64,000 nt of DNA from Candidatus Microthrix parvicella Bio17-1 (GTDB taxonomy: Bacteria > Actinomycetota > Acidimicrobiia > Acidimicrobiales > Microtrichaceae). The position numbers and the translations under genes were made by a program. Shown in pieces: positions 7,201 through 35,299 of this stretch. A model generated the notes under the pieces. The model did no database searches, was not told where the DNA came from, and saw only the letters and a list, made by a program, of their open reading frames with translations. The stretch lies in contig NZ_AMPG01000001.1 of assembly GCF_000299415.1 (NCBI RefSeq), positions 682,001 through 746,000 on the forward strand, in the 5' to 3' direction. The first letter of the stretch is position 1. The number at the start of each line of letters is the position of its first letter.

Positions 7201-8961
7201 GATAGCACTGGCCGTGTATGGGATGGGACCACCGGCGAGGCCCTGCACACGCTGACCGATCACTCTAGCGAGATCTTGGATGTGGCGTGTTCCTCCGATG
7301 GTTCCCGGGTGGTCACGGGCAGCCGCGACGGCACGGCGCGCATCTGGGACGGCACCACCGGCGAGGTACTCCACACCCTCACCGGCCACACCGACTCGGT
7401 GGGCGGAGTGGCGTGTTCGGCCGACGGTTCCCGAGTGATCACAGGCAGCCACGACAACACGGCCCGCATCTGGGACGGCACCACCGGCGAGGTCTTGCAC
7501 ACCCTCACCGGCCACACCGACTCGGTGGGCGGAGTGGCATGTTCGTCTGATGGTTCCCGAGTGATCACAGGCAGCCACGACAACACGGCCCGCATCTGGG
7601 ACGGCACCACCGGCGAGGTCTTGCACACCCTCACCGGCCACACCGACTCGGTGGGCGGAGTGGCATGTTCGTCTGATGGTTCCCGAGTGGTCACAGGCAG
7701 CCGCGACAACACGGCCCGTATCTGGGACGGCACCACCGGCGAGGTACTCCACACCCTCACCGGCCACACCGATTGGGTGGTCGGAGTGGCATGTTCGTCC
7801 AATGGCGATCGGGTGGTCACAGGCAGCCGCGACGACACCGCTCTCATCTGGGACGGCACCACCGGCGAGGTCTTGCACACCCTCACCCGGCACGGTGGCT
7901 GGGTGGGGGGTGTCGCGTGCTCATTCAATGGTGAGCGGGTGGTCACGGGCAGCCGCGACGGCACGGCACGCGTCTGGAATGCCGCTACTGGGGAGGTCAT
8001 CTACGCCCTCACCGGCCGTAGGGAACCGGTAGAGGGCGTAGCGTCCTCCTCCAACGGCGACCGGGTGGTCACGGGCAGCCGCGACGGCACGGCACGCGTC
8101 TGGAATGGGACTACAGGCGAGGTCTTGCACACCCTCACCGGCCACACCGATTGGATCGTAGCTGTGGCATGTTCGTCCAATGGCGACCGGGTGGTCACAG
8201 GCAGCGATGACGGCACGGCACGCGTCTGGAATGCGGCTACTGGCGAGGTCTTGCACACCCTCACCGGCCACACCGATTGGGTGGTAGGAGTGGCATGTTC
8301 GTCCAATGGCGATCGGGTGGCGACCGTCAGCGGCGACGGCGTCACTCGCATTTGGCACGGGACTACCGGCGCGGTCTTGCACACCCTCACCGGTCAGGTC
8401 GGCTGGGTGGAAGCTGTGGCATGTTCGTCCGATGGTGGCCGGGTGGTCACGGGCAGCGACGACGGCACCACATGCATTTGGGACGGCACCACCGGCGAGG
8501 TCTTGCACGCGCTAACCAGTCACACCGACTCGGTGCTGGGTGTGGCGTGTTCGGCCGACGGTTCCCGAGTGATCATCGCCAGCGCCGACAACACGGCCCG
8601 TATCTGGGATGGAACCACCGGCGAGGTACTCCACACCCTCACCGGCCACACCGACTCGGTGTTGGGCGTGGCGTGTTCGGCCGACGGTTCCCGAGTGATC
8701 ACCGCCAGCGCCGACAACACGGCCCGTATCTGGGACGGGACCACCGGCGCCGTGGGGCTGCAACTCCACTGCCTAGATGCTCGCTCTGCCGCCACCGTCG
8801 CCGGTTCAGGGCAGTTGGTCTGGGCCGACGGCGAGGCATGGCGTCACCTCGGCGTGTTGGTGACCAGCCCTGACGGAGAGCTGCTTCGGGTCCCCGCCGA
8901 GGTCTACGGTCCGCTCCCGGGTATCGGCCCCGGCCCCTTCGCGAAAGCCGCGACATCATGA
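4225..8961 (+). CDS. STAND (NACHT) ATPase with WD40 repeat sensor
   Basis: A 1578-residue NLR-like protein. Residues 1-110 are a helical region of unknown family. Residues 160-330 form a degenerate TIR-like domain (VWIHLEHD, HLLAGQ, VVIVPLLTPKW, VFQGGKPWPNR). A NACHT module follows, with Walker A GDSGSGKTT (382-390), Walker B VLIFDGLDEVL (473-483), sensor MTCRTHYFPT (519-528) and the C-terminal helical signature FAHTSLLEFFLASYL (726-740). Next comes a pentapeptide-like stretch (NLSGCNLAGADLRDARL and on, about 840-935). Residues 970-1515 are thirteen 42-residue WD40 units, with a degenerate fourteenth after them. ATG at 4225 overlaps the TIR stop. A longer upstream frame runs through the TIR gene and is rejected. 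STAND proteins oligomerise on ligand binding with ATP, so the propeller is the likely sensor and the TIR the effector. Confidence 0.88.
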   Translation: MSNHRPNEALPQLSAGDAAAKIRRLLQRTEHQTTRRRLEALLAAVEAVAPDADTLDYVAVRFATVGDGPSAADSFRTFRSNFSEASNQLGTPMTLEVDGNKKQGAEGRRCWFTGQSQRGIELSNTSAALTRSVDEESLVSADALPQDAVEDVARTAEKEVTVWIHLEHDPNTTATAEKLEELLEPWLSMHDQLAKLGIGVRISNSHLLAGQSSKQLNDRRQQAVVIVPLLTPKWVADHRETHWPAAAQLVPVCVTAMRTKIENGKILLADNAPMQVFQGGKPWPNRAGGNETFTEELADQLVARVKESYQQLQRQGMARRVELDDVTTVDHEAVQIGLTDASSRSLGNATPRHDRTEAVHVVDHLEAWAAASEGKPYAVLLGDSGSGKTTAAQVLNNRLNATYRKHLEHQGADRADARLSIYLDLRKADLDERQSPELERLINNVMERTWEEEAARTITPDVILDQVRNHGAVLIFDGLDEVLVRVNEQRGMEFIQQLWRALPPEMVKDDDRNTGRLVMTCRTHYFPTLDSERSFFGGQDRTDGVPTMYEALHLLPFNEAQIRDYLSQHFRKRDEHQPGLGQVDAAMTMLADVHNLLELAGRPYNLRLISQQLGNLESIRASGATVSLATLYDGFVRDWLSRDDTKHVLRPDDKRTLMEDLAGKLWRDSTRSMSHKDLSNWLMTQLSENTDLGRWFAVERPQFELAVEDLRTATFLVRPGAERFEFAHTSLLEFFLASYLVRALIDGRPESWAMPVPSDETLEFVANLLTSLRGESDRAVQADSAKSTLRELGDTYRRQASELAFRYCVKTQGTDAITRPLAGFNLAGATLRHLELRSEPDQPLLNLSGCNLAGADLRDARLHRVRLDDASFTGTRVNRAELHGCSLLRADFDQADLIATTFRDCRLTEINLAAATVHRTKVLQCDASGAALGPQRLGDVFVTPASAANQTDSTELASSSPSVVGLFPAGHCETVTGVACSAEAGRVITGSADSTGRVWDGTTGEALHTLTDHSSEILDVACSSDGSRVVTGSRDGTARIWDGTTGEVLHTLTGHTDSVGGVACSADGSRVITGSHDNTARIWDGTTGEVLHTLTGHTDSVGGVACSSDGSRVITGSHDNTARIWDGTTGEVLHTLTGHTDSVGGVACSSDGSRVVTGSRDNTARIWDGTTGEVLHTLTGHTDWVVGVACSSNGDRVVTGSRDDTALIWDGTTGEVLHTLTRHGGWVGGVACSFNGERVVTGSRDGTARVWNAATGEVIYALTGRREPVEGVASSSNGDRVVTGSRDGTARVWNGTTGEVLHTLTGHTDWIVAVACSSNGDRVVTGSDDGTARVWNAATGEVLHTLTGHTDWVVGVACSSNGDRVATVSGDGVTRIWHGTTGAVLHTLTGQVGWVEAVACSSDGGRVVTGSDDGTTCIWDGTTGEVLHALTSHTDSVLGVACSADGSRVIIASADNTARIWDGTTGEVLHTLTGHTDSVLGVACSADGSRVITASADNTARIWDGTTGAVGLQLHCLDARSAATVAGSGQLVWADGEAWRHLGVLVTSPDGELLRVPAEVYGPLPGIGPGPFAKAATS
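7132..8769 (+). repeat. Thirteen in-frame 126-bp WD40-coding repeats
   Basis: Units start at 7132, 7258, 7384 and so on to 8644, and occupy 1638 bp, exactly 13 x 126 with no indel. Units 3-5 are almost identical at DNA level. Consensus pieces are VACSSDGSRVVTGS, then DNTARIWDGTTGEVLHTLTG. Differences cluster at a few positions: S/W after TD, the next G/V/L, S/D/E/G before RV, and R/H/D/A/G just before the structural Asp of D(G/N)T. A degenerate fourteenth blade follows (LDARSAATVAGSGQLVW). Fourteen blades would build two seven-bladed propellers, which is an inference. Confidence 0.95.
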
Positions 8962-11110: not shown

Positions 11111-12378
11111 GCCGCCCATTTGGATACGGACACACGCCAGATGGCTGGGAACCGGCGAAGCTCCGTTCGGTCCTGACGCGGAGAAAGCGGACAGGCCAGG
11201 TAGGGCTTCCGTTGCTCTCGGTGAACCTCCCGGAAGGTGTGGTGATGCGACGAACGGGAGACGGACGCGCGGCGCCGTCAACGGACCTGTCCGCATACCA
11301 AGAAGTCAGGCCTGGCGACCTTGTGATGAACCAGCTTGGCAAGCCGCACGGCGCACTTGGCGTCTCGGGCTTCCACGGGATCATTAGCCCCGCATACTTC
11401 ATCGCTGAACTCAGCGACCGCATCCATCCACGCTTCGCACACCACCTTCTTCGAACGAGGCTCTACATCAGCGAATACGAACGACGAGGAAAGTTCATGC
11501 CTCCCTCGCAGTTCGATATCAGCTGGGATCAGTTTCGGGAGATTGATCTCGCTCTGCCGCCACCTGAGGTACAGCGAGCGATTGCCGACTACCTCGACGC
11601 CGAGACCGCCCGTATCGACGCCCTCATCACCAAGAAGCGCCGCATGATTGACCTCCTCGGCGAACAGGTCGACGCTCAGGTCTTCGCCGCAGTGAGCGGC
11701 AGCCTCACGGCCGGTTCTACGCCACGCAAGCACACGCAGATCCCGTGGCTGGACACTATTCCGAGCCACTGGGGTAGCCCGTGGCTTGGCGCAAACCACA
11801 CGACGCAGTTGGGCAAGATGCTCAGCGCCTCTGTGGCATCTGGCCCAGAGCAGTATCCGTACGTGAAGAATACCAATGTCCAATGGGACCGGTTCGATCT
11901 CACCGACCTTCCGACCATGACGTTCGATGCGAGCGATCGGGTCCGCTGCAACCTGGATGAGGGAGACCTTCTGGTATGCGAAGGCGGAGAGGTGGGCCGT
12001 GCGGCCGTCTGGCCTGGAGCCCCGAAAGACGTCTTCTTCCAGAAGGCGATTCACCGGGTCCGACCGGTCAGTGAGGCCGAGCCCAGGTACACGATGTACT
12101 GCCTCTGGGCAGCAGCGAACATGAACGTCTTCGCAGTCGAAGGAAATCAAGCAACCATCGTTCACCTGACCGGAGAGAAACTGCGCGAGCATCGCTTCCC
12201 ATGGCCCCCACTCGCCGAACAGCGGGAGATCGTGCGACACCTGGATCAATCACGCGCAAAGGTCGAAGGCATGGTTGAACGGTTGACCAAGCAAATCGAC
12301 CTGCTTGCTGAGCGGCGGCAGGCGTTGATCACCGCTGCCGTGACCGGCGAGCTGGAGATCCCGGGAGTGGCGGCATGA
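11107..12378 (+). CDS. hsdS: Type I restriction-modification specificity subunit HsdS
   Basis: A 423-residue specificity protein with the usual two half-sites. TRD1 (about 1-150) ends in the conserved helix LPPPEVQRAIADYLDAETAR, then IDALITKKRRMIDLLGEQ. TRD2 (about 200-345) ends in PPLAEQREIVRHLDQ and the second long helix to the C-terminus. Each TRD reads one half of a bipartite target and the helices set the spacer. The GTG start overlaps the hsdM stop, and the stop overlaps the hsdR start (ATGA), giving tight stoichiometric coupling. TRDs are the most exchangeable part of type I systems, so target specificity cannot be read from sequence alone. Confidence 0.92.
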   Translation: MSRPFGYGHTPDGWEPAKLRSVLTRRKRTGQVGLPLLSVNLPEGVVMRRTGDGRAAPSTDLSAYQEVRPGDLVMNQLGKPHGALGVSGFHGIISPAYFIAELSDRIHPRFAHHLLRTRLYISEYERRGKFMPPSQFDISWDQFREIDLALPPPEVQRAIADYLDAETARIDALITKKRRMIDLLGEQVDAQVFAAVSGSLTAGSTPRKHTQIPWLDTIPSHWGSPWLGANHTTQLGKMLSASVASGPEQYPYVKNTNVQWDRFDLTDLPTMTFDASDRVRCNLDEGDLLVCEGGEVGRAAVWPGAPKDVFFQKAIHRVRPVSEAEPRYTMYCLWAAANMNVFAVEGNQATIVHLTGEKLREHRFPWPPLAEQREIVRHLDQSRAKVEGMVERLTKQIDLLAERRQALITAAVTGELEIPGVAA

Positions 12379-15300
12379 GCAACGTGGACGAGGCAGCGTT
12401 TGAGCAGTTCATCTGCGACTGGCTGGTGGGGTCGGGCGGCTACGACGCCGTGAAGATCGGCAATCCGAAGGAACCGCAGCAGGACTTCGATGTGGTCCGA
12501 GCGCTGGACACGTTCGAGTTGTTCCAGTTCATCGATGCCACCCAGCGACCTGAATGGGACAAGTTGGTCACGCTCTACGGCGGCGACATCACCAAAGCCC
12601 AGAAGGGCCTCGCCGACCGGGTGGCTCAGGAGCAAGACAAGCGAGGCACCGTGGATGTGCTGCGTCACGGCGTGGTCGACCTGGGCCAGACGATCAAGCT
12701 GGCGTTCTTCCGGCCGGCATCGGGTCTGTCGCCGGAGCTGATCGAGCGCTACGGCAAGAACCGGCTGACCGTCACCCGGCAGCTCCCCTACGAGGCCGGC
12801 TCCACCAAGACGCTGGACCTCTGCCTGTTCGTCAATGGGGTGCCGGTGGCGACCGCGGAGTTGAAGAACCATCTGACCGGGCAGACCGTGGCGCAGGCCG
12901 TCGAGCAGTACCGCACCGATCGGGATCCCAAGAACACGCTGCTGAAGCGGGCGGTGGTGCACTTTGCCGTCGACACCGAGCAGGCGGCGATGACCACGCG
13001 CCTGGCGGGCAAGGCGACCCGGTTCCTTCCGTTCAACCGGGGCCACGACCTGGGTGCGGGCAATCCGCCCAACCCGGACGGGCACCGCACCGCCTACCTG
13101 TGGGAACGGGTGTGGCAGCGCGACGCGTGGCTGGACCTGCTGAACCGCTTCGTCCACGTGGAGCCCACACCAAAGGGCTCGAAGAAGCAGGCGCAGCTGA
13201 CGATCTTCCCCCGCTTCCATCAGTGGGATGCGGTGCTGGCCATGACGGCCGCCGCCCGCAGCAACGGCGCCGGTGACGACTACCTTGTTCAGCACTCGGC
13301 CGGGTCGGGCAAGAGCAACACGATCGCCTGGCTGGCGCACCGGCTGTCGTCGCTGCACAACGACGCCGACGAGAAGGTGTTCGACAAGGTGGTGGTGATC
13401 ACCGACCGGCGGGTGCTCGACAAGCAGCTGCAGGACACCGTTCACCAGTTTGAGCACGTGCACGGCGTGGTGCAGCGCATCGACGAGGACTCCACCCAGC
13501 TGGCCGAGGCGCTGACCGGCCAGCAGGCCCGCATCATCATCACGACGCTGCAGAAGTTCCCCTACGTCACCGAGAAGATCGACTCGCTCCCCGACCGCAC
13601 GTATGCGGTGATCGTGGACGAGGCCCACAGCAGCCAGACCGGCGAGTCGGCCACCAAGCTGAAAGAGGTGCTGGGTTCGGCGGACGGCGCCGCGGCGCCG
13701 GACGAGCTGACCGACCCGGCCGAGGATGCGCTTGCCGCTGCCGTGGCCGCCCGGGGCAAGCAGCCCAACCTGTCGTTCTTTGCGTTCACCGCCACACCGA
13801 AGGCCCGCACGCTGGAGCTGTTCGGCCGATTGGATCGCGGCACTGGGCGGCACGTGCCGTTTCACCTGTACTCGATGCGTCAGGCGATCGAGGAGGGGTT
13901 CATCCTCGACGTGCTGGCCAGCTACGTCACCTACAAGACCTACTGGAACATCGAGAACACCACGCCGGACGACCCCGACTTCGACCCGGGCAAAGCCCGC
14001 GCGGCGATCGCCAAGTTTGTGGCGTTGCACGAGCACACGCTGGCCCAGAAGGCCGAGGTGATCGTCGAGCACTTCCGGGAGAACGTCGCCCATCGCATCG
14101 GGGGCATGGCCAAGGCGATGGTGGTGACGTCGTCGCGGGAGCACGCCGCCCGTTATGTGCTGGCGCTGCGCAAGTACGTGAACGACAAGGGCTACACCGA
14201 CGTCGGGGTGCTGGTGGCGTTCTCGGGCACGTTGGATCTGGACGGTGGCACCGAGACCGAGTCGTCGATGAACGGCTTCCCCGACAGCCAGACCCCCGCC
14301 GAGTTCGACGGCGGCGAGTGGCAGATCCTGGTGGTGGCCGAGAAGTACCAGACCGGGTTCGACCAGCCGAAGCTGTATGCGATGTACGTCGACAAGCCGC
14401 TGAACGGCCTGGCCGCCGTGCAGACGCTGTCGCGTCTCAACCGCACCTACGACCGCGACGGGATCCGCAAGGACGGCACGTTCGTGCTGGACTTTCGCAA
14501 CGACGCCGACGACATCCGGGCGGCGTTCGAGCCCTGGTACGGCGAGACGGTGGCGCCGCCGACCGACCCCAACCTGCTCTACGACACCCGCCATGCGCTG
14601 GACGAGTTTGGGGTGCTGTGGCCAGAAGAGATCGAACGGACCGTCGACCTGCTGCTGGCCAAGGGCGCCACGGTGACCCAGCGGGTCCACGCAGCGCTGG
14701 CGCCGGCGATCGACCGGTTTCTCTACGACCTCGAGGAGGACGAACAGGAGCGGTTCCGCGACGACCTGGGCCGCTTCGTGCGCACCTACGCGTTTCTGTC
14801 GCAGGTGGTGGCGTTCACCGACATCAAGCTGGAACGCGACTATCTGTACTGCAAGGCCCTCGCTGCGTTCGTGAAGGCCGACGGCTCGGTGGCGGTGCAC
14901 CCCGACGTGGAGCTGACCCACCTGAAGCTGGAGCAGACCTTCGAGGGGTCGGTCACCCTGGACGGCACCGTCGGCGAGGTGGTGTCGATCTTCGGTGGCA
15001 CCGGCAAGATGCACGAGCCCGAACCCGAGCCGCTGTCCAACATCATCGCCATGCTGAACGAGCGCTTCGGCACCAGCTGGGACCCCAAGGATCGGGTGTT
15101 CTACGACACGGTCGCCGAGAAGCTGATCGAGCGCAGCGACATCCAACAGCAGGCGTCAGCCAACAGCCCCGAGAACTTCGGGCTGATCCTGGCCAAAGAG
15201 TTCCAGTCGGGCGTGCTCGACCAGCTGGGCACCTCCGAGGACATGGCGCTGGCCTACATCGACAACACCGAGCTGCAGGGCGAGGTGCTGAAGGCGTACC

Positions 15301-15887
15301 TGCCGTTCATCCAGGGGAAGGCGAAGGTTGCGCACCAGGAGCACTGCGACGTGACCGAGCTACTGGGACCCGACCGGGAGTCGGCGAGCCTGGAATACAA
15401 GGCCACGCTGCGCACCCATCAGGACTCGGGCGGGACGTTCAAGCCGCTTGAGGGCGCCTCGCTGAAGACGATCGCCGCGTTCATGAACGGTCACGAGGGC
15501 GGCACCCTGCTGATCGGCGTATCCGACGACGGCACCGTCCACGGGCTGGACAGCGACTACGCCAACCATTCCAAACAAGGCCAGGACCAGCGGGACTGGT
15601 TTCAGCAGCACCTGTCCAACATCATCTCGACGTCGATGGGCGACGCTGCGGTCACCAACGTGCGGGCGCAGATGCACCACGTGGATGGCCACGACATCTG
15701 CCGGGTGCAGGTGGACCCCTCGGGGTTCCCCGTCGACGCCACCGTGATCAAGCAGAAGCCCGGTGGCCCCAAAGAGAAGGTCACCGAGTTCTACGTGCGA
15801 GGACTCAACGGCACCAAAGCCCTCGACGTGGTGGAGAAGCAGAAGTACATCGCCCAACGCTGGCCCGGCACCCCTGAAGCCTCCTGA
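12375..15887 (+). CDS. hsdR: Type I restriction endonuclease HsdR with extra C-terminal AlbA_2-like domain
   Basis: A 1170-residue translocase-nuclease. The N-terminal PD-(D/E)XK nuclease has VATAELKN (E162, K164). The helicase has Walker A SAGSGKSNT (from 308), the DEAH box VDEAHSSQ (from 414) and motif III FFAFTATPK. The usual HsdR C-terminal helical part follows. From about residue 996 there is an additional domain (ESASLEYKATLRT, AAFMNGHEGGTLLIGVSDDG, GLDSDYANHSKQGQD) matching the AlbA_2/Schlafen-type putative nucleic-acid-binding family. Canonical HsdR is near 1000-1050 residues, so this tail is an addition. The last 141 bp recur, diverged, at 17038 and 17572. The operon is intact and the enzyme is predicted to be functional. 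Confidence 0.92.
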   Translation: MSNVDEAAFEQFICDWLVGSGGYDAVKIGNPKEPQQDFDVVRALDTFELFQFIDATQRPEWDKLVTLYGGDITKAQKGLADRVAQEQDKRGTVDVLRHGVVDLGQTIKLAFFRPASGLSPELIERYGKNRLTVTRQLPYEAGSTKTLDLCLFVNGVPVATAELKNHLTGQTVAQAVEQYRTDRDPKNTLLKRAVVHFAVDTEQAAMTTRLAGKATRFLPFNRGHDLGAGNPPNPDGHRTAYLWERVWQRDAWLDLLNRFVHVEPTPKGSKKQAQLTIFPRFHQWDAVLAMTAAARSNGAGDDYLVQHSAGSGKSNTIAWLAHRLSSLHNDADEKVFDKVVVITDRRVLDKQLQDTVHQFEHVHGVVQRIDEDSTQLAEALTGQQARIIITTLQKFPYVTEKIDSLPDRTYAVIVDEAHSSQTGESATKLKEVLGSADGAAAPDELTDPAEDALAAAVAARGKQPNLSFFAFTATPKARTLELFGRLDRGTGRHVPFHLYSMRQAIEEGFILDVLASYVTYKTYWNIENTTPDDPDFDPGKARAAIAKFVALHEHTLAQKAEVIVEHFRENVAHRIGGMAKAMVVTSSREHAARYVLALRKYVNDKGYTDVGVLVAFSGTLDLDGGTETESSMNGFPDSQTPAEFDGGEWQILVVAEKYQTGFDQPKLYAMYVDKPLNGLAAVQTLSRLNRTYDRDGIRKDGTFVLDFRNDADDIRAAFEPWYGETVAPPTDPNLLYDTRHALDEFGVLWPEEIERTVDLLLAKGATVTQRVHAALAPAIDRFLYDLEEDEQERFRDDLGRFVRTYAFLSQVVAFTDIKLERDYLYCKALAAFVKADGSVAVHPDVELTHLKLEQTFEGSVTLDGTVGEVVSIFGGTGKMHEPEPEPLSNIIAMLNERFGTSWDPKDRVFYDTVAEKLIERSDIQQQASANSPENFGLILAKEFQSGVLDQLGTSEDMALAYIDNTELQGEVLKAYLPFIQGKAKVAHQEHCDVTELLGPDRESASLEYKATLRTHQDSGGTFKPLEGASLKTIAAFMNGHEGGTLLIGVSDDGTVHGLDSDYANHSKQGQDQRDWFQQHLSNIISTSMGDAAVTNVRAQMHHVDGHDICRVQVDPSGFPVDATVIKQKPGGPKEKVTEFYVRGLNGTKALDVVEKQKYIAQRWPGTPEAS
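15747..15887 (+). repeat. hsdR 3'-end direct repeat, copy 1 (in the intact gene)
   Basis: The last 141 bp of hsdR, beginning ATCAAGCAGAAGCCCGG and ending at its TGA, is the reference copy. Two diverged copies lie downstream at 17038-17177 and 17572-17711, in the same orientation and with the same boundaries. Confidence 0.85.
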
Positions 15888-15923: not shown

Positions 15924-16406
15924 TTAGTCGGGAGGGGGTGGTATTCGGGGAGCCGGCAGCTTCTCAGAGGCGGACCCAATCACGCTTGTCACGAGGCTTG
16001 CGATCACGTCAAGCTCTCTGCGTGAGGGCTCGACAAGGTCGGCCGGGTAGTTGATGTCGTGGCGCAGCTGCCGCAATTGATCGAGTTGTGCGTGGCCCTT
16101 CGTGTCCACGATCCCGATGGCGAGTGCGTAGTCGACGACTGCCTCGTGGGCGCCAGGAGCGTTGCGAAATCGGTATCCGTTGAGGGTGGCGATCGCCGTG
16201 ACCGAGAGTCGGGCGGCTTCGTGGAAGTTCGACACGGCCGGCAACGACAGTCCCGTTTCGAGGCCGAGCTCCGCAAGCGTCTGGAACGAGCGTGCTTCTA
16301 GCAGGGTTCGACGGGCGGCTGATCGGTTCTCAGCACTCCGAGCCACCAATTGATGCATCTGATCGCGTTCGATCGCGGCGAGTGGAACCGGCCGGTCACC
16401 TCGCAT
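15924..16406 (-). CDS. HEPN-domain protein, probable toxin of MNT/HEPN pair
   Basis: A 160-residue all-helical protein with the architecture of HEPN toxins or partners: SFQTLAELGLETGLSLPAVS, then NFHEAARLSVTAIATLNGYR, and LRQLRHDINYP near 111-121. The Arg/His cluster (R112, R115, H116) sits where HEPN RNases carry their R-x(4-6)-H site, but the spacing is atypical. RNase activity is therefore uncertain. Its start overlaps the end of the nucleotidyltransferase gene by 11 nt, the usual MNT-HEPN arrangement in which the MNT partner neutralises HEPN by AMPylation or binding. The module lies, on the opposite strand, between hsdR and the second copy of the hsdR 3' end. Confidence 0.7.
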   Translation of the reverse strand: MRGDRPVPLAAIERDQMHQLVARSAENRSAARRTLLEARSFQTLAELGLETGLSLPAVSNFHEAARLSVTAIATLNGYRFRNAPGAHEAVVDYALAIGIVDTKGHAQLDQLRQLRHDINYPADLVEPSRRELDVIASLVTSVIGSASEKLPAPRIPPPPD

Positions 16407-16974
16407 GTTGGCGCCTCAGCACCGGGATCGAGTGCTGGCGCAGTTCGGCAAGTCGTTCGTTGTCGGGTTCGACGACGAACTGGTCGATCTTTGCACCGGT
16501 GCTCGCTTCGAGCCGCAGCCGTTCCTCGGCGAGATCGAAGCGAGTGAGGGAGTCGGCGACGATCGCTATGTCGATGTCGTTTGGCGGAGGGCCGGAGATG
16601 CCGTTGACGCGATCGGCCCATGATCCAAAAATGAAGACCTCGTCGATCTCGGGACGGCCGTCGTACTCGGCGATCAGCACGGGAACGATGCCTCCTACAT
16701 ACGCCAGCAGCTGTCGCAGGGCCGGGGCGAATGGCAGGTCATCGGCCGGCACGGCGACCTGGCCGGTACCGACGATCTCGGTTCGGATGAGTCCTGACCC
16801 TTCCAGCCTGGCGAGTTCGCGGGCCACGGTCGACTGCGGAATGCCGAGTCGCCGTGCCAGTTCCGCGCCGGTTGCCGGCACGCCGTGAAAAATTTCAGCG
16901 AGTAGCCGCATCTGTTGTGCTGACCTGAACAGCGGTAGCAGGGCAGAACTCGGCATCGCCATGCGGCGCAACAT
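16396..16974 (-). CDS. Winged-HTH minimal nucleotidyltransferase (MNT) antitoxin
   Basis: A 192-residue fusion of an N-terminal winged helix (ATGAELARRLGIPQSTVARE, about 34-53) and a minimal nucleotidyltransferase domain. The latter carries FIFGSWADR (114-122) and NDIDIAIVAD (132-141); D133 and D135 are the metal ligands, and a third acidic residue is likely in KIDQFVVE. Such HTH-MNT proteins act as antitoxins and autoregulators of a downstream HEPN gene, which overlaps here. ATG at 16974 lies 8 nt after CATAAT on the minus strand, so the transcript may have almost no leader. The wHTH suggests binding of the palindromes at 16977-17012. Confidence 0.8.
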   Translation of the reverse strand: MLRRMAMPSSALLPLFRSAQQMRLLAEIFHGVPATGAELARRLGIPQSTVARELARLEGSGLIRTEIVGTGQVAVPADDLPFAPALRQLLAYVGGIVPVLIAEYDGRPEIDEVFIFGSWADRVNGISGPPPNDIDIAIVADSLTRFDLAEERLRLEASTGAKIDQFVVEPDNERLAELRQHSIPVLRRQHAR

Positions 16975-16976
16975 AC

Positions 16977-17012
16977 ACCCGCATTATGGGTAGATCAACC
17001 CGTAATGTGGGT
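16977..17012. promoter_or_regulatory. Paired palindromes over the MNT promoter
   Basis: Two related 15-bp palindromic sites, ACCCGCATTATGGGT (16977-16991) and ACCCGTAATGTGGGT (16998-17012), fit ACCCRCATTAYGGGT when one is read in reverse. The first contains the minus-strand -10 box CATAAT (16983-16988 complement). This is a good candidate operator for the winged-HTH MNT protein. Confidence 0.5.
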
Positions 17013-17037
17013 AGCGGCGACCCGACCGGGTTCACTC

Positions 17038-17177
17038 ATCAAGCAGAGCCCCGGCGTACCAAGGAGAAGGTCACCGGGTTCTACGTTCGGGGCCTCAACG
17101 GCACCAAGGCCCTCGACGTGGTCGAGAAGCAGAAGTACATCGCCCAACGCCGGCCCGGCACGCCCGACGACGCTTAG
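17038..17177 (+). repeat. hsdR 3'-end direct repeat, copy 2 (out of context)
   Basis: This is a diverged copy of the hsdR tail. It starts ATCAAGCAGAGCCCC, encodes GLNGTKALDVVEKQKYIAQR in the plus frame, and ends at a TAG aligned with the hsdR stop. It lacks one base near its start (20 instead of 21 nt between ATCAAGCAG and AAGGTCACC), a deletion shared with copy 3. The short open frame through it is a remnant, not a gene. Confidence 0.85.
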
Positions 17178-17404: not shown

Positions 17405-17571
17405 GAGGGACCTCGCAGTGTGCTCGGGCGGAGCTTCATCGAGTGAATCACCCGGTAGCCAGTATCGGTCGTGAGGTAGACGATTTCCAGTAGCTGTCCA
17501 TCCCGGGCTGGACCGATGACCAAGATGCGCTCAGCGGGCCGGGCTGGTGGCTCCGGCGCTAAGGGCCAGTA
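17401..17571 (-). pseudogene. C-terminal fragment of a BrnT/DUF4258-like toxin
   Basis: The minus frame reads PAERILVIGPARDGQLLEIV followed by YLTTDTGYRVIHSMKLR. This is the typical C-terminal half of small mRNA-interferase-like toxins of the BrnT/DUF4258 type ('lviGpdr.GrlLEvv...iiHam.aR'). The N-terminal half is missing: the coding sequence runs directly into hsdR-tail copy 3 at 17572. Family assignment is tentative because only the C-terminal half remains. Confidence 0.5.
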
Positions 17572-17711
17572 ATCAAGCAGAGCCCGGCGGCCCCAACGAG
17601 AAGGGCACCGAGCTCTACGTGCGCGGCCTGAACGGCACCAAGGCCCTCGACGAGGTCGAGAAGCAGAAGTACATCGCCCAACGCTGGCCCGGCACTCCCG
17701 ACATCGCCTGA
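17572..17711 (+). repeat. hsdR 3'-end direct repeat, copy 3 (out of context)
   Basis: This is a second out-of-context copy of the hsdR 3' end, starting ATCAAGCAGAGCCCGG and ending at a TGA aligned with the hsdR stop. It shares the one-base deletion of copy 2, so these two copies are related to each other rather than independent duplications from the present hsdR. It abuts the toxin fragment at 17571. Confidence 0.85.
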
Positions 17712-18050: not shown

Positions 18051-18146
18051 GGCCTCCACATCATCGGTCTCAAAGGTGCGCCAGTGGTTTCGATAGGCGT
18101 GGATCATGTCGTGTTCAGCGACACCGTGCTTGCGTGCGCTCGCCAC
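18051..18146 (-). pseudogene. N-terminal fragment of a small toxin
   Basis: The minus frame carries VASARKHGVAEHDMIHAYRN followed by HWRTFETDD, resembling the start of BrnT/DUF4258-like toxins. It runs straight into the antitoxin-like gene at 18050 without the expected C-terminal core. Its upstream side is overlapped by a plus-strand vapB gene, so it is probably a truncated relic. Confidence 0.4.
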
Positions 18147-18152
18147 ATCCTG

Positions 18153-18374
18153 ATGCGAACAACCGTCGATCTCGATCCCGAGCTTCATGCCGAAGCCCAG
18201 GCCTACGCGCGGCGACGCCGCCGCGTGTCGCTGAGTTCGCTCGTCAACGAGGCGCTCCGCAAATCGCTTCGGCCCGTGCCACTGGTGGAGCGCGACGCTG
18301 TGACCGGCTTGGGCGTGGTCCAACTCGGCTACCCCGTGAGTTCCGAAGATGTAGCGGATGCCCTCGACGGCTGA
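18153..18374 (+). CDS. VapB-type ribbon-helix-helix antitoxin
   Basis: A 73-residue protein, MRTTVDLDPELHAEAQAYAR followed by RRRRVSLSSLVNEALRKSL. This is the beta-strand and two helices of a ribbon-helix-helix antitoxin with a C-terminal toxin-binding tail. The open frame extends upstream to 18084, but the RHH fold starts at the ATG at 18153. It overlaps the downstream VapC-like frame by 17 nt. That toxin is truncated, so this antitoxin may be an orphan. Confidence 0.75.
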   Translation: MRTTVDLDPELHAEAQAYARRRRRVSLSSLVNEALRKSLRPVPLVERDAVTGLGVVQLGYPVSSEDVADALDG

Positions 18375-18537
18375 CGCGCTACTCCTCGACGCCAACGTGC
18401 TGATCGCCGCCACCATCGCCGATCACGAACACCATGAGCGGGCGCGCCAGTTGCTCGGCGACAGCCGACGATTCGCAACCTCCCCATCGACCCAGGGTTC
18501 ACCGATCCGGTACCTGGTTCGAGTCGTTCTGCGATGA
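18358..18537 (+). pseudogene. Truncated VapC PIN toxin
   Basis: ATG at 18358 overlaps vapB and opens a PIN-domain N-terminus: ALLLDANVLIAATIADHEHH, then RRFATSPSTQGSPIRYLVR, with the first catalytic Asp intact. The frame stops after 59 residues (RVVLR, stop at 18535-18537), where family members continue to about 130-140 residues. The missing C-terminal half includes the other acidic catalytic residues. The break point lies shortly before the repeats that precede the DUF4143 gene, so an insertion or deletion there may have cut the gene. Confidence 0.75.
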
Positions 18538-18571
18538 GCTCACTGCCCCTGCGGAAGCTTCATGCCGAGGA

Positions 18572-18633
18572 TGGCAGATCCACCACGAACAGGATGGCAG
18601 ATCCACCACGGGTACAGTGGCAGATCCACCACG
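18572..18633 (+). repeat. Three 16-bp repeats with an exact 23-bp period
   Basis: TGGCAGATCCACCACG occurs perfectly at 18572, 18595 and 18618, separated by non-conserved 7-bp spacers. The last copy ends 28 bp before the start of the DUF4143 ATPase gene. Candidates are an iterated protein-binding site controlling that gene, or the end of a mobile unit. See the related repeats at 19973. Confidence 0.85.
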
Positions 18634-18661
18634 TCAACGGTTGAAACACCCTAGGTGCCTG

Positions 18662-19903
18662 ATGAATCTGCCTTCTTACCTCGACCGACGAGCCGCCCCT
18701 TTGGTGACCGAGGCGCTGGGCGACACGCGCGTGGTCGTCGTGATCGGGGCACGCCAGGCCGGCAAGAGCACGTTGGTCCACGAGGTATCACGAGACATCT
18801 CCAACGTGCGAGAGCGTCGCCTGGACCGTCCCAACGAACTCCAGGCGGCGGCTGCAGACCCGGTCGCCTTCGTTGAGCATGACGGCCTGCTGGTGGTGGA
18901 CGAGATCCAACGAGCTCCTGAGCTGCTGCTTCCCATCAAGGCTCGGGTCGATGAAGACCCGCGTCCGGGCCAATACATCCTGACGGGCTCTGCCCGGTTG
19001 CTCGGGTTACGCAACGTTCCCGACGCGCTGGTGGGACGCACCGAGACCGTGGAGCTGTGGCCATTCTCCCAAGGCGAGTTGGATGGATCGCCCGACGAAT
19101 GGGTAGACCGCGTCTTTGACGTTTCGCCGGACTGGCGGAGCCCGGAAGTGTTGGAGCGCACCGACTACTTGGAGCGGTCCGTCCGGGGAGGCTTTCCCGA
19201 AGCCGTCCGTCGGCAGGGCCGCCGTCGAGAGCGATTCTTCGAGTCCTACGTCAACGATCTCCTCGACCGGGACGTCACCCAGTTGGCTGACATTCAACGC
19301 CGCTCTGATCTCCATCGGCTCTTGAGGCTCGTAGCAGACTCGATGGCTCAGCCGATGGTGATTGCCCGAGTGAGCTCTGCGCTCCAACTTCCCGAATCCA
19401 CGACCCGCCGCTATCTCTCACTGTTCGAGGAGGTCTTCCTGATTAAGCGGTTGCCCGCATGGTCGGCAACCGCCACCAAGCGGGCATCGCGGACGCCGAA
19501 GACGCTGTTCGTCGACACCGGTATTGGGTCGCACTTGGCCGGGCTGGGGCTCGGCCGTCTGCAACGGGATGAGGCGCTGGCCGGTCCTGTATTGGAGAAC
19601 CTGGTGCTATCGGAGCTTGCCAAGCAGATTTCCTGGTCGTTAACCCGGCCATGGCTTGGTCACTATCGCACCCGTGACGGGGATGAGGTCGACGGTGTTC
19701 TGGAAGCCCCGGACCGACGCATCGTTGGCATTGAGGTCAAGTCCGCTAGGTCGGTTCGGTCCGAAGACTTCCGCGGTCTCAAGCACCTTCAAAGCCGAGT
19801 GCCCCAGCGCTTCCATCACGGCGTGGTCTTGTACACCGGCGACGAGGTGCTGTCGTTTGGGGCTGGACTCACCGCCCAGCCGATCAGCTCGCTTTGGGCC
19901 TGA
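18662..19903 (+). CDS. AAA ATPase with DUF4143 domain
   Basis: A 413-residue protein of the AAA_14/DUF4143 family. Walker A is IGARQAGKSTLV (28-39) and Walker B is LLVVDEIQRAP (about 76-86). The ILTGSARLLGL segment follows, then the C-terminal DUF4143 domain with GIEVKSARS, a PD-(D/E)XK-like strand. ATG at 18662 is where the family begins. The long upstream open frame is not conserved. These widespread, often mobile proteins have no settled function. Repeats with a 23-bp period flank it on both sides in opposite orientation. It sits among toxin-antitoxin relics, so a selfish or defence-related role is plausible. Confidence 0.85.
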   Translation: MNLPSYLDRRAAPLVTEALGDTRVVVVIGARQAGKSTLVHEVSRDISNVRERRLDRPNELQAAAADPVAFVEHDGLLVVDEIQRAPELLLPIKARVDEDPRPGQYILTGSARLLGLRNVPDALVGRTETVELWPFSQGELDGSPDEWVDRVFDVSPDWRSPEVLERTDYLERSVRGGFPEAVRRQGRRRERFFESYVNDLLDRDVTQLADIQRRSDLHRLLRLVADSMAQPMVIARVSSALQLPESTTRRYLSLFEEVFLIKRLPAWSATATKRASRTPKTLFVDTGIGSHLAGLGLGRLQRDEALAGPVLENLVLSELAKQISWSLTRPWLGHYRTRDGDEVDGVLEAPDRRIVGIEVKSARSVRSEDFRGLKHLQSRVPQRFHHGVVLYTGDEVLSFGAGLTAQPISSLWA

Positions 19904-19972
19904 GCTGCTGACCGAGGTCAAGGCGCCCTTGCTACTTGAACCCGCGTATCGGCTTCGGCTCGTGACGCGCTC

Positions 19973-20012
19973 GTCAGTTTGTGGAGCTTCGGCTAGTCAG
20001 TTTGTGGAGCTT
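19973..20012 (+). repeat. Two 17-bp repeats with a 23-bp period downstream of the DUF4143 gene
   Basis: GTCAGTTTGTGGAGCTT occurs at 19973 and 19996, again with a 23-bp period. Its core GTGGAGCT is the reverse complement of AGCTCCAC, close to AGATCCAC in the upstream repeats at 18572. The two flanks therefore look like inverted, iterated terminal sites around the ATPase gene. Confidence 0.75.
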
Positions 20013-20018
20013 GCTCGG

Positions 20019-22559
20019 TCAGAGACCAAGCGCTGCTCGCAGGCGGGCGGGACTCATGCCGACGGCGCCATCGTCCACCTCGGGGAACGAGGCCAGAAGC
20101 CGTATGAGGTCCTCGCGAGCGATCGGGTCGGCGGCAGCTTCCCGGGGCGTGCGGCCACCCAGCGCCGGAATAGTGGAATCCAGCCATTCCGTTTCGTAGG
20201 TCGCCATGTGGGCCTCAATCGCCGCCCGGATCTCGGGGTTGGCGAGCATCTCGGCCTGATTGGGCAGCTCGGGCGGATCGTTCTCGTCGAACTCGTCCAA
20301 GGCGCTCAGCTTGGTACTGAGGTGGACCGCATCCGGAACGTGCTCGGCGATCAACTCCAGGAGTTCCCCGGCCCGCTCGACCGAGTTGGTGCTGCCCAAC
20401 ATCGTGTCGCCGTCCAGCTGGATCGACGCGACGAGCGCATTCGATTGGTTGGCGGTGTCCCGCACCAACGTCCAGCTGTCTCCATCGTCGGTGAGACCTG
20501 CCCGACCCAAAGCCTCAGCCACGTCGGCGCCGTCGGGCAGCGACCAGGTGACTTCGGTCGGCTCCATCTCATGGCCATCGGTGTTACGGATTTCCGGCGC
20601 ACGGTGCATCGAACCGAGCAACTCCATCAGTGCGTCGGGGTCCTTGTCGTCAAGTACCGACAACGCAGCCTGCACGAGATCTGGTCGGAGCGCCATAAAC
20701 CCCGAGAATGCACGGTAGATGTCCCCGACCGGCAGAGGGCGACCGATCAGGAGGCTACCGGGCCTCGACATCGGGTTATCGTCCACGTTGACGACCTCGA
20801 TCATCTCGCCGGTGCCAAGATCGCGAAGCTCGATAGAGCCCGGACTGGTCGATTCGACCTCGAACACTGTGCGGTCGACCAGCATCCACTGCTGAGCGAG
20901 AAGCACCTCGTCGTCGGGGAGAGTCGATAGTCGTCCGTCAAGGAAGCCCTGCTCGAACTCCTCTTCGTGGAGCACGACGTCGGAGATCAACGGCGCCTTG
21001 ATCATCTCGGCCCAGAGTGAGGGTTCGCCCATGACATCGGTCAGAATCCCAGCGAGCGAATCGATCTCGTCGTCCGCCTGCTCACGCGCAAATCGAACCA
21101 TCTTGTGATACAGCCAAAGTGAGCGATCTTCGATCGGGTGCAGCTCGCGCCCGAGGTGACACACCTTGTACTTGCGGCCCGACCCGCATGGACAGCGCTC
21201 GTTGCGGCGAGCCATCGGCGGCGGAGTGTTGTCCGCCCAGACCTCGATCTCGTCCTGAAGGTCGTCGATGACCTTGCGGTAGGTGTGCGGCAGCAGGGTG
21301 AGCTTGGGGAGGTCTTCGACCAACCGTTCGGCTTCCCGCAGGAGCTTCTGTGCCTCCTTGGCCTGGCTGCGAGCGATGGCGAGCCGGGCGCGGTCGATCA
21401 GTACCGGGAGGTAGCCGGTGCTGCCGGGCAGGTCATCGAGCACCACTGCCGCGGAATCGATATCGCCGAGGACGAGATCGCAGTGGGCCACCAGCCACCG
21501 CATGGCCCAGCTGGTCGGGTCGTCCTCGAAGAGCGCCGCGACCGTCGCCGCCAAGCCCCTGGCGGCTTCGCATCCCTCGGTTTCGGAGCATTCGTACGCG
21601 ACGACCGTGGCGATCGACTTTCGTTCGAGCAGGGCCTCGAACATCACCGGAGACGTCTCCTGCTCGTCGGGAGTTGCCCCGAACGCCATCGGGCTCTCCA
21701 CGGCATAAAGTCCGATGGCGCCCAGCAGAATCTGTGCTCCCAGCGCGTCGTCGGCGTCGACGCCCCATCGGAACATCGATTGGCGTTCCCTGTCCGCGTC
21801 GGCGAGCACCTCGGGATCCAGATCGGCGGGCACGACCGAGCGCCGCTCGACCCGCAGACCCGCAGCGGCGAGAAGATCGGTCGACGATGGCAGCGGCTCG
21901 CCCGCCATCAGCGAATGATCGGCACGAATGGCCTCGTGGAGCACGGTCGACACCTGGCTCCGCATCACGTCAACCACCTCGTCGCTACCGTGGGGCTGGT
22001 ACTGCTGGTGATCGGCGACGGCGTAAAACGCCGTCCGCGCTGCGGCGGCGCGATCGGGATCGACTTCGGGTGGGCCGACGAGTTGCTCGATCACGAGCTT
22101 GCCCTGACGGACCCGGAACGCCACCCACGAGTCGGAGAACGCATCAAGCCATCCGTCGGGGCCCACCACCACGTCGGTGTCGACGTCGTCGATCATCCAG
22201 CCGTCGCTCTGGATGTCACCGATCCGCTCGCCTGACTCGTCGAACACATCGACTGCGCATTCGACGATCCACCACCCGATCGCGTCCAGTTCCGGCTTCA
22301 TCAGGATGTAGCCCTCAGCGGCCGTCGCCGGGTCGATCCACACGCTGAACGCCACGCCATCCGTCAATCCGGGGATGTATCCGATGCCGTCCCCCAACTC
22401 GAGGAACCGAGGGTCCATCTGGATGCGGCGATCGACGTCGTTCGCGCTGATTCGGTACCCAGCCTCGGCCAGCCGATCGCGAAGTTCGGAGCGGGGGACG
22501 ACGCCACCACCGATCACCTCTGCGAGTGCCGCACCAGCATCCTTGTCGCTCATGACCAT
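20019..22559 (-). CDS. Large SEC-C motif protein of unknown function
   Basis: An 846-residue acidic, soluble protein with no signal or membrane segment. The recognisable feature is a central SEC-C zinc-binding motif, RNERCPCGSGRKYKVCHLGR, at about residues 455-474 (Cys-x-Cys...Cys-His). In SecA and many unrelated proteins this motif binds zinc and mediates protein interaction. The N-terminal part has a winged-helix-like start (GGGVVPRSELRDRLAEAGYR). The flanking regions look TPR-like or helical without clear repeats. Two ATGs are possible (22559 and 22553), neither with a strong ribosome-binding site. No operon partner is evident. Confidence 0.65.
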   Translation of the reverse strand: MVMSDKDAGAALAEVIGGGVVPRSELRDRLAEAGYRISANDVDRRIQMDPRFLELGDGIGYIPGLTDGVAFSVWIDPATAAEGYILMKPELDAIGWWIVECAVDVFDESGERIGDIQSDGWMIDDVDTDVVVGPDGWLDAFSDSWVAFRVRQGKLVIEQLVGPPEVDPDRAAAARTAFYAVADHQQYQPHGSDEVVDVMRSQVSTVLHEAIRADHSLMAGEPLPSSTDLLAAAGLRVERRSVVPADLDPEVLADADRERQSMFRWGVDADDALGAQILLGAIGLYAVESPMAFGATPDEQETSPVMFEALLERKSIATVVAYECSETEGCEAARGLAATVAALFEDDPTSWAMRWLVAHCDLVLGDIDSAAVVLDDLPGSTGYLPVLIDRARLAIARSQAKEAQKLLREAERLVEDLPKLTLLPHTYRKVIDDLQDEIEVWADNTPPPMARRNERCPCGSGRKYKVCHLGRELHPIEDRSLWLYHKMVRFAREQADDEIDSLAGILTDVMGEPSLWAEMIKAPLISDVVLHEEEFEQGFLDGRLSTLPDDEVLLAQQWMLVDRTVFEVESTSPGSIELRDLGTGEMIEVVNVDDNPMSRPGSLLIGRPLPVGDIYRAFSGFMALRPDLVQAALSVLDDKDPDALMELLGSMHRAPEIRNTDGHEMEPTEVTWSLPDGADVAEALGRAGLTDDGDSWTLVRDTANQSNALVASIQLDGDTMLGSTNSVERAGELLELIAEHVPDAVHLSTKLSALDEFDENDPPELPNQAEMLANPEIRAAIEAHMATYETEWLDSTIPALGGRTPREAAADPIAREDLIRLLASFPEVDDGAVGMSPARLRAALGL

Positions 22560-34700: not shown

Positions 34701-35299
34701 AGCCCCAACGCATCAATCCTCTCGCCCGGCTCTTGCCGGGCGGCCACAACGGCTCGGTGAGCGGGGTGGCCTACAGCCCCGACGGCACCCGGATCGCCAC
34801 CGCCGGTGACGATGGGACCGCGCGGGTCTTCGACGCCGCCACCGGCGAGGAACTCACCGTGTGCACCGGCCACAACGGCTCGGTGAGCGGGGTGGCCTAC
34901 AGCCCCGACGGCACCCGGATCGCCACCGCCGGTCTCGATGGGACCGCGCGGGTCTTCGACGCCGCCACCGGCGAGGAACTCACCGTGTGCACCGGCCACA
35001 ACGGCTCGGTGAGCGGGGTGGCCTACAGCCCCGACGGCACCCGGATCGCCACCGCCGGTATCGATGGGACCGCGCGGGTCTTCGACGCCGCCACCGGCAC
35101 GCTCACCACGCCAATCGTGCCCCTACCAGTGCCTGAACGAGCTACGGTTTCGGCTCGGGGGGACTTACTGGCGGCTACACCCGGCGCCTGGCGATACCTC
35201 AGTGCCCTCGTGATGGCTCCCGACGGTCCGGTTCGATTGCCGATCGAGGCTGTGGCACCGGATGCTTTTGGGTCCCACCCGTTCGCCGACACACCCTGA
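31754..35299 (+). CDS. STAND (NACHT) ATPase with three WD40 repeats, second copy
   Basis: 1181 residues, the same domain order as the 1578-residue protein at 4225. There is an N-terminal helical region, then a TIR-like degenerate domain (LWVHLEHGEEESEMAEAMET, NLVAGQTEAHRKRRR, VFRGGKPWPNR). The NACHT module has Walker A GDLGTGKTT (407-415), Walker B LLIFDGLDEVL (about 496-506), the MTCRTHYFPTID sensor and FAHTSLLEFFLARYL. A pentapeptide-like segment follows (LNLSGCTFDQTDLRDTVFS). From residue 997 there are three identical-length WD40 repeats and one degenerate blade. The length difference from the first copy is roughly ten WD40 units. ATG at 31754 follows from the TGATG junction. The longer upstream frame through the TIR gene is rejected. 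Confidence 0.87.
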   Translation: MATDDWPRLTATQAVPLLHQLSATMSGRHTLRGRCTQLADVLATTQGADTEFLLSAALDRLFPDHPQAVNRFRDFRYALNGEAERAGVPIRVQTDTQRTGDAGRRGWWAEGMPAGSAEVARVSTLASRTLETSPVTLDAVDQADHERTARQLGATTLWVHLEHGEEESEMAEAMETLLDQRTQTNLNLAAANLAVRYSTCNLVAGQTEAHRKRRRNQATIVIPLLTHAELKRLAEGPPWPATTCTAPVCIEPLTDHIKNGHLVGRLGSATNRPMVFRGGKPWPNRRDSLPRAADELADAVVALLLGGVRTARHGDETLESLSTGDMTEPCNPSKQHEHQGRLLARRLPTEQIFVHGDAARYDLTEGTSSSQQLATQRSDRSEAFDAVTNLRQWANDPDGAPYGVMLGDLGTGKTTTAMVLNNDLNDAWHDWTEEPQDEAPPLSIYLDLRTVEAGLRSAPRLNEVIDSVLRNAWQVADSESVNARVVLDHVRNQGALLIFDGLDEVLVHLSPAKGRDFLRELWRALPPAMIEDDGQHTGRLLMTCRTHYFPTIDRERSFFGGEDKEPVKNLYRAIYLLPFNDAQIRDYLQQHFTEIEREVDTPDSVRQAMELLSMVHNLMELAERPYNLRLISDQLPALRQARQEKRPVSLATLYNGFVTQWLERGENHHLIRSADKRLLMEDLAAHLWRRGGRGIDHAALDNWLFERLESLPEMQRFYGGDRAALELLAEDLRTSTFVVRPGVDRFEFAHTSLLEFFLARYLMRALVEGRHEAWAIPNPSPETLVFLVDLALGLGSDPDAARDVAALQATLDELARVPRPLASELAFRYCLAANDRQAPGRTLTGFNLTGASLRHLHVAGPTTGAMLNLSGCTFDQTDLRDTVFSRVRMDRVSMRSARLDRTEFLGCSLSTIDLQDASLPAALMRESRLNDMDLSSATTTRGKVVRCRITGCIWPDGTGETAGDILGADNIGATRPPAPNWPQPQRINPLARLLPGGHNGSVSGVAYSPDGTRIATAGDDGTARVFDAATGEELTVCTGHNGSVSGVAYSPDGTRIATAGLDGTARVFDAATGEELTVCTGHNGSVSGVAYSPDGTRIATAGIDGTARVFDAATGTLTTPIVPLPVPERATVSARGDLLAATPGAWRYLSALVMAPDGPVRLPIEAVAPDAFGSHPFADTP
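34742..35119 (+). repeat. Three near-perfect 126-bp WD40-coding repeats
   Basis: Units start at 34742, 34868 and 34994. The first two are identical over all 126 bp except one codon: GAC at 34808, CTC at 34934. The third has ATC at 35060 and is otherwise identical until its last ~20 bp. The encoded change is Asp/Leu/Ile in ATAG-x-DGTARVFD, directly before the structural Asp of the blade. Only the first two bases of the codon change, and every change is non-synonymous. Confidence 0.95.

Follow-up and report, generated by a model that had tools for sequence, protein, structure and literature searches.

The window, which is the whole stretch of 64,000 nucleotides analysed here, comes from Candidatus Microthrix parvicella Bio17-1 and contains an ATPase gene lying between two arrays of short direct repeats, both with a period of 23 bp (Table 1). 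Upstream of the gene, the 16-bp core TGGCAGATCCACCACG is present in three exact copies (18572-18587, 18595-18610 and 18618-18633); downstream, the 17-bp core GTCAGTTTGTGGAGCTT is present in two (19973-19989 and 19996-20012), adjoining the 3' end of the SEC-C gene. The original prediction had reported these exact units, three before the gene and two after it, and both the coordinates and a tile scan confirm them. On a score for repeats of period 22 or 23, in which at least 9 counts as an array and at least 13 as a strong one, strong repeats were found at the two array sites only (3 tiles among 473 half-overlapping 270-bp tiles of the window), the right array scoring 18.5. The start codon lies 25-28 bp past the end of the left array, through which an open frame runs (ORF 18434-19903). 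The VapC/PIN frame stops 30 bp 5' of this array and is indeed truncated, as had been noticed, because only positions 2-37 of the 120 of the PIN profile are matched.

Table 1. Features of the ATPase locus and their positions in the window.
Feature	Position	Strand	Basis
VapB-like antitoxin frame, upstream neighbour	18084..18374	+	weak match, under Pfam cut-off
VapC/PIN fragment, truncated	18358..18537	+	match just under Pfam cut-off
Left array, 3 direct repeats of 23 bp, proposed self-operator	18568..18636	+	repeat search; related loci
Spacer from array to ATG, where the core promoter is expected	18637..18661	+	sequence; pattern of relatives
AAA_14 + DUF4143 ATPase gene, 413 aa, PADLOC candidate PDC-S01	18662..19903	+	Pfam, PADLOC model
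Winged helix (predicted), residues about 212-265, with a putative recognition helix at 245-257	19295..19456	+	AlphaFold2, fold matches
PD-(D/E)XK-like C-terminal domain, residues about 304-407; D344, E358, K360	19571..19882	+	model, conserved columns
Right array, 2 repeats of 23 bp, between convergent 3' ends	19969..20012	.	read as orphan
Gene for a SEC-C motif protein, in convergent orientation to the ATPase gene	20019..22559	-	frame list, domain search

No further convincing copy of either unit was found in the 4.2-Mb genome: 5 extra matches with two mismatches were obtained for the left unit, against 13 for a backward control, and 8 with three mismatches for the right unit, against 11 for its control. 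The left tandem is absent from the viral contigs searched and from 32 other genomes of the same family, and the only plasmid DNA resembling the unit is a 96-bp stretch (74-75%, in 5 records).

The identification of the gene between the arrays as an AAA/DUF4143 gene holds, both Pfam domains being well over the gathering score (DUF4143, 131.9 bits with a cut-off of 28.1; AAA_14, 84.4 with a cut-off of 27). A Walker A motif (GARQAGKST), a Walker B motif (VVDE) and a PD-(D/E)XK-type motif (EVD...IEVK) are all present in the protein. In an alignment of 15 proteins, residues G29, A30, R31, Q32, G34, K35, S36, D80, E81, D344 and K360 are invariant, and E358 is kept at 90% or more; the window protein has every one of these residues. 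The AlphaFold2 model made from these 15 sequences (pLDDT 84.5, pTM 0.84) is predicted to consist of an AAA+ core and a helical region, followed by a winged helix and then a PD-(D/E)XK-like domain, names that were given from secondary structure and motifs; the predicted winged helix would provide a DNA-binding domain in the gene product. The best solved fold relatives are the archaeal Walker-type ATPases PABY2304 (2qen, Z 15.3 over 252 residues, rmsd 4.7) and SSO1545 (2fna, Z 14.7 over 249 residues, rmsd 4.3), whose likeness covers model residues 2-294 and 1-293, respectively, and not the C-terminal domain. The next matches are NLR/CED-4 proteins. Foldseek returned CED-4, RuvB and ORC with good E-values and whole-chain TM-scores of at most 0.42, and the matches in a viral fold library were for the most part clamp-loader-like AAA+ proteins. 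No close relative was found by a sequence search of the PDB (one match, E 0.73).

The PADLOC model of PDC-S01, PDLC04790, matches residues 5-413 of the protein (E 1.9e-161), which has the same AAA_14 + DUF4143 architecture. According to PMC12988326, S01 is an ATPase fused to a PD-(D/E)-X-K member, with system counts of 29,494 for Bacteria and 9,986 for Archaea, and is the fourth most common defence across prokaryotes; experimental validation is described there as pending for most PDCs.

The left array is not a peculiarity of the window, as the GGCAGATCCAC core at period 23 was also found directly 5' of homologous genes in other genomes. A scan of GTDB species genomes for two exact GGCAGATCCAC units with 10-14 bases between them gave 34 loci, 27 with a pitch of 23 and 7 with a pitch of 21 or 24. 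A P-loop frame of this kind lies directly 3' of the array in 19 of the 27 pitch-23 loci (frameshifted in L061); hence, the array belongs to the gene rather than to this genome. Among the other pitch-23 loci, L054 and L063 have remnants of a DUF4143 gene after the array, and L065 reaches its edge 89 bp past the array. Five (L042, L055, L062, L064 and L071) carry orphan period-23 arrays, with neither a DUF4143 gene nor a remnant of one in the DNA at hand. In the 7 loci whose pitch is 21 or 24, no P-loop gene of this kind stands behind the array. The ends of an IS21-type insertion sequence, the first guess, were dropped as a candidate once P-loop DUF4143-type genes had been found behind the arrays.

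Homologs collected by protein similarity alone, from this genome and its relatives, show the same arrangement with a constant pitch and a different unit sequence. For example, two paralogs of this genome have CGCGTAATCTTGGTAGTC (L022) and CCGAAACTGTAGCGTAGG (L023) as their units, and further unit sequences are GCAGGTGATCGGCATC (L115) and CCTCCAATTACGAAAC (L034). The 36 array-labelled genes (34 labelled by score and two, L103 and L087, by eye, in the tree only and not in the score counts) all fall within one clade of 51 when a tree of 99 proteins is drawn, with a support of 97/93, and the array label changes 11 times on the tree, versus 29.5 times with shuffled labels. Genes with less than 120 bp upstream or less than 300 aa after the P-loop were left out of the tree and the counts, as was the minus-strand gene of L176, which has its upstream DNA in common with a plus-strand gene.

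When the 17 pattern-found genes are set aside, 34 clade members remain, including the window gene; 10 of these 34 unselected genes come from genomes reached via another array-bearing gene. An upstream array of period 22 or 23 reaches the score of 9 in 27 of them and is strong in 17, the other 7 having no upstream array even at a low score. Among homologs outside the clade, 5 of 48 reach 9 and none is strong, a contrast that is descriptive since the clade was delimited on the tree once the arrays were known. Three further comparisons are independent of the choice of the clade. Dinucleotide shuffles reach 9 in 5 of 680 cases for the 34 clade upstream regions and in 8 of 960 for the 48 outside ones, without a strong score in either set; in natural DNA around the pattern loci, 4 of 610 tiles reach 9 and none is strong; and downstream of the 33 clade genes with enough DNA, the score of 9 is reached twice, once strongly, at the window. 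In a three-copy test against shuffles, 27 of the 34 clade members are significant (period 23 in 20, 22 in 5, 24 in 1 and 14 in 1), while outside the clade, 8 of 48 are, where 2.4 are expected by chance, with scattered periods and only one at 23.

Surveys by Pfam family gave no strong array of period 22 or 23 among 29 genes of another phylum (2 of which had been fetched with the array-genome set), nor among 18 further genes of the own phylum, with weak ones in L170, L176, L177, L179 and L180; the claim is for this reason restricted to one clade. As strong arrays are absent outside it, the family as a whole needs no array. By eye and uncounted, inverted repeats lie near the start of out-of-clade DUF4143 genes, e.g., L167, L168, L177 and L185, so that palindromic operators may exist elsewhere in this family. 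L081 (G114:C101) has a four-copy array of period 22 that lies between about 134 and 52 bp before the start. Read as its reverse complement (CCGCGGATCCACCACG), this array is similar to the window core; such a core seems to be used there in the opposite orientation.

The same kind of array accompanies genes on plasmids. A homolog is present in 193 plasmid records, from which 15 were chosen for variety, 5 from the 30 best matches and 10 from 30 spread ones: 13 are alphaproteobacterial, one is betaproteobacterial and one is from Thermus. The three-copy test is significant for 13 of these 15, with period 22 in 11 and 23 in 2; the two without a significant array are an Aminobacter gene (p 0.07) and the Thermus gene (p 0.215). 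Among viral contigs, no relative of the ATPase protein was confirmed, and phage records contain 7 weak relatives with 23-29% identity. An AAA 14 + DUF4143 gene of T. thermophilus is reported in PMC4406477 to be up 6.6-fold in the presence of a plasmid, only when Argonaute is present. This induction is not used as evidence here, since the sole T. thermophilus homolog tested, the Thermus gene above, has no significant array.

The position of the arrays points to the promoter. Of the 42 actinobacterial genes listed with a repeat score of at least 8, 37 have an array whose end lies no more than 35 bp from the estimated start. In 29 of 54 actinobacterial genes, a TANNNT hexamer ends 4-11 nt ahead of this start, compared to 5.2 expected from bins farther upstream, the gene starts being estimated by script; many transcripts may therefore be leaderless. 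The hexamer is not special to array genes, because the genes of the other phylum are also enriched in it, to a lesser degree (17 of 27 vs. 6.8 expected). In 9 of 11 loci with a AGATCCAC-type unit, the distance from the end of the last core to the hexamer is 9-22 nt, and in the other 2 it is 45 nt, which would place the array over or beside the -35 region of promoters that are predicted from TANNNT only. Thus, in the clade, iterated sites lie directly upstream, at the predicted promoter. The spacer of the window gene lacks the exact TANNNT common among the relatives, the nearest sequence being TAGGTG.

Array and gene can also be followed together in one pair of species. Mycolicibacter sp. MYC123 (L052) and M. 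icosiumassiliensis (L068) have a block of 1,386 aligned positions in common, with 89% identity, which extends from the first repeat to 11 bp past the stop codon and thus comprises the array and the gene; the right edge of the unit is near the stop codon and not at a second array. By blastn, the flanks show no homology on either side. This block with unrelated flanks implies that the unit can change context, with the reservation that a later exchange of the flanks could yield the same picture in this one species pair. The right flank of M. icosiumassiliensis has a counterpart in MYC123 and the left flank has none. No clean empty site was found around the pair, since the M. fortunisiensis region that is syntenic with the MYC123 flanks differs between them. 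Pairs in Frankia and Microbispora are at partly or fully syntenic places and are uninformative on transfer.

The reading that we prefer, with a probability of about 0.6, is that the AAA_14-DUF4143 protein attaches cooperatively to the array before its own gene and thereby governs the promoter of that gene. Several protein subunits would lie side by side on the array at the fixed pitch of 22-23 bp, and the bound array would cover the upstream part of the promoter, by which transcription of the gene itself would be controlled. The gene would be autorepressed until a trigger, e.g., invading DNA, shifts the ATP or oligomer state. The pitch would be fixed by the geometry of the protein and the base sequence would drift per subfamily; the paralogs of one genome would thereby hold separate addresses. 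Binding to the own array is favored because the addresses of the paralogs differ, that of the window is unique and the Mycolicibacter block contains array and gene only. We infer binding by the protein itself, repression through this binding and a link to defence. That the effect would be repression and not activation is guessed from where the array lies, and the link to invaders is a candidate one that derives solely from the candidate status of PDC-S01. A selfish ATPase with its own operators had been among the initial proposals; the left array and the pitch-matched arrays upstream of related genes fit the operators, whose role as such is putative.

Defence genes are often under separate regulators, and a host or phage factor from elsewhere could bind the array instead of the ATPase. 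The tests that tie a protein region to the site sequence are weak, which leaves room for such a factor. The stretch of the putative recognition helix is 83% identical within the same-array group and only 46% and 48% identical to L102 and L103, close kin with other arrays, to which the neighboring stretches stay at 64-79%. Array similarity tracks the identity of the whole protein (Spearman 0.60, 34 genes), and the corrected correlation is 0.30 for the recognition-helix windows versus 0.38 and 0.32 for two stretches elsewhere. In matched pairs at 50-60% identity, the recognition helix drops most, by only 0.09; in pairs at 62-76% identity, it is outside the top eight windows. However, with different sequences at the paralogs and a unique unit at the window, a private regulator would be needed for each gene, and the Mycolicibacter pair has no more than array and gene in common, so that a separate regulator is rather unlikely. 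The array could otherwise be mainly a loading or assembly site, for an AAA+ nuclease filament, iteron-like or for self-transfer, with transcription control being secondary. Direct repeats iterated at a fixed pitch, an AAA+ fold with ORC, RuvB and STAND-type matches, a nuclease-like domain and a block of array and gene common to different contexts would all suit such a site. On the contrary, the arrays end near the start codon, often directly before a -10-like hexamer, and no strong second array exists at the other end in the relatives tested; a loading site as the main function is, therefore, considered improbable. Neutral tandem duplications or a coding N-terminal extension are hardly credible. 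The reading frame is open through the window array, yet the array is no coding extension because a pitch of 22 or 23 is not a multiple of three. Moreover, related actinobacterial and proteobacterial genes have repeats of this pitch with other sequences, and shuffles and natural DNA rarely give such repeats.

The last alternative brings in the right array. The original prediction envisaged a mobile unit with iterated inverted ends, i.e., a transposon carrying the ATPase gene, in which the left and right arrays would be the multi-site ends. Both arrays are real, have period 23 and bracket the gene, the VapC frame is truncated directly before the left one, and in one species pair array and gene form a common block whose surroundings differ. 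Nevertheless, a strong downstream array of period 22 or 23 is found at the window gene only, i.e., at 1 of the 33 clade genes tested, at none of the 17 pattern-found genes and at none of 46 genes outside the clade; earlier downstream scans gave three further repeats, of periods 16, 20 and 21. The exact right tandem occurs in none of the 395 other genomes of the phylum searched (396 with that of the window) nor in the viral contigs searched. The two cores, supposed to be alike in inverted orientation, agree in 9 of 12 nt and, when 23 nt are compared, in 13; of 500 shuffles, 131 and 57, respectively, do as well, so their likeness is at the level of chance. Hence, the ends are not alike as inverted arrays. 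The lone gene between them has AAA_14 and DUF4143 only and no transposase domain, and the Mycolicibacter block ends 11 bp after the stop codon. A transposon is, accordingly, very improbable: the Mycolicibacter block of array and gene is compatible with mobility, and the inverted ends fall away with a right array that is missing in relatives. The proposed search for relatives with flanking repeats yielded upstream arrays in the clade and a strong downstream array at no other gene tested. The right array is probably an orphan, the remainder of the operator of a lost or displaced relative, which is the simplest explanation because arrays with no gene, or with a decayed one, behind them are present at other loci.

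Self-binding could be extended to a broader, speculative proposal. Each ATPase-nuclease of the clade might be a one-gene, self-addressed module, an AAA+ multimer on its own 22-23-bp address that would be operator and loading or self-transfer site together and would keep diverging, whereby many copies could live side by side in one genome without cross-talk. This remains a long shot; if true, a branch of a very numerous candidate defence family would consist of orthogonal protein-DNA pairs, and no system of this sort is described in the literature searched.

In a branch of a phage-defence-candidate family, the arrays form a cis element whose pitch is constant and whose sequence is specific to the subfamily, and they resemble a private switch for gene control. 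Plasmid iterons and cooperative operator arrays are direct repeats of about 20-22 bp before the gene of the binding protein, and the arrays described here are likewise directly repeated before a gene. Unlike iterons, they are found before chromosomal as well as plasmid genes, with one unit sequence per subfamily. The multi-site ends of Tn7, Mu and IS21 contain several binding sites per end at a regular pitch; in contrast, the window gene lacks a transposase domain, and no strong second array follows the gene in the relatives tested. Such arrays were not found described in the literature on DUF4143, AAA_14, PDC-S01 and their kin, the coverage of which extended to sources other than subscription journals and preprints, nor in the accessible parts of PMC12988326, PMC13356809, PMC9252829, PMC11514479 and PMC4406477. 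The array is a handle on unstudied genes, as it predicts a target of the protein, the spacing of its subunits and the avoidance of cross-talk. It may also permit a computed matching of proteins to sites, as with repressor-operator families.

As for the neighborhood of such genes, the ATPase gene of three Microbispora species (L047, L053 and L059) lies, by eye and at syntenic places, beside an apparent selenocysteine-type tRNA gene. In the window, 12375-15887 encodes a type I restriction R-like protein that has HSDR_N and SWI2/SNF2 domains and, at its C-terminal end, Schlafen AlbA_2; the surroundings look like a defence island because this gene is close to the ATPase gene. Its HsdR/Schlafen-AlbA C-terminal end (YVRGLNGTKALD.VEKQKYIAQR.PGTP), at 15763-15887, recurs twice downstream (16986-17177 and 17547-17711), in short frames that resemble partial duplications of the gene end. 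On the minus strand, 15924-16974 contains a MarR-like helix-turn-helix with a nucleotidyltransferase match below the cut-off (16396-16974) and an overlapping 160-aa frame without family match; this may be an MNT/HEPN-like toxin-antitoxin pair, in which HEPN is a guess. Finally, two arrays of 126-bp repeats are present at 7282-8749 and 34741-35098, which, judging from the period, are probably WD40-type coding repeats.
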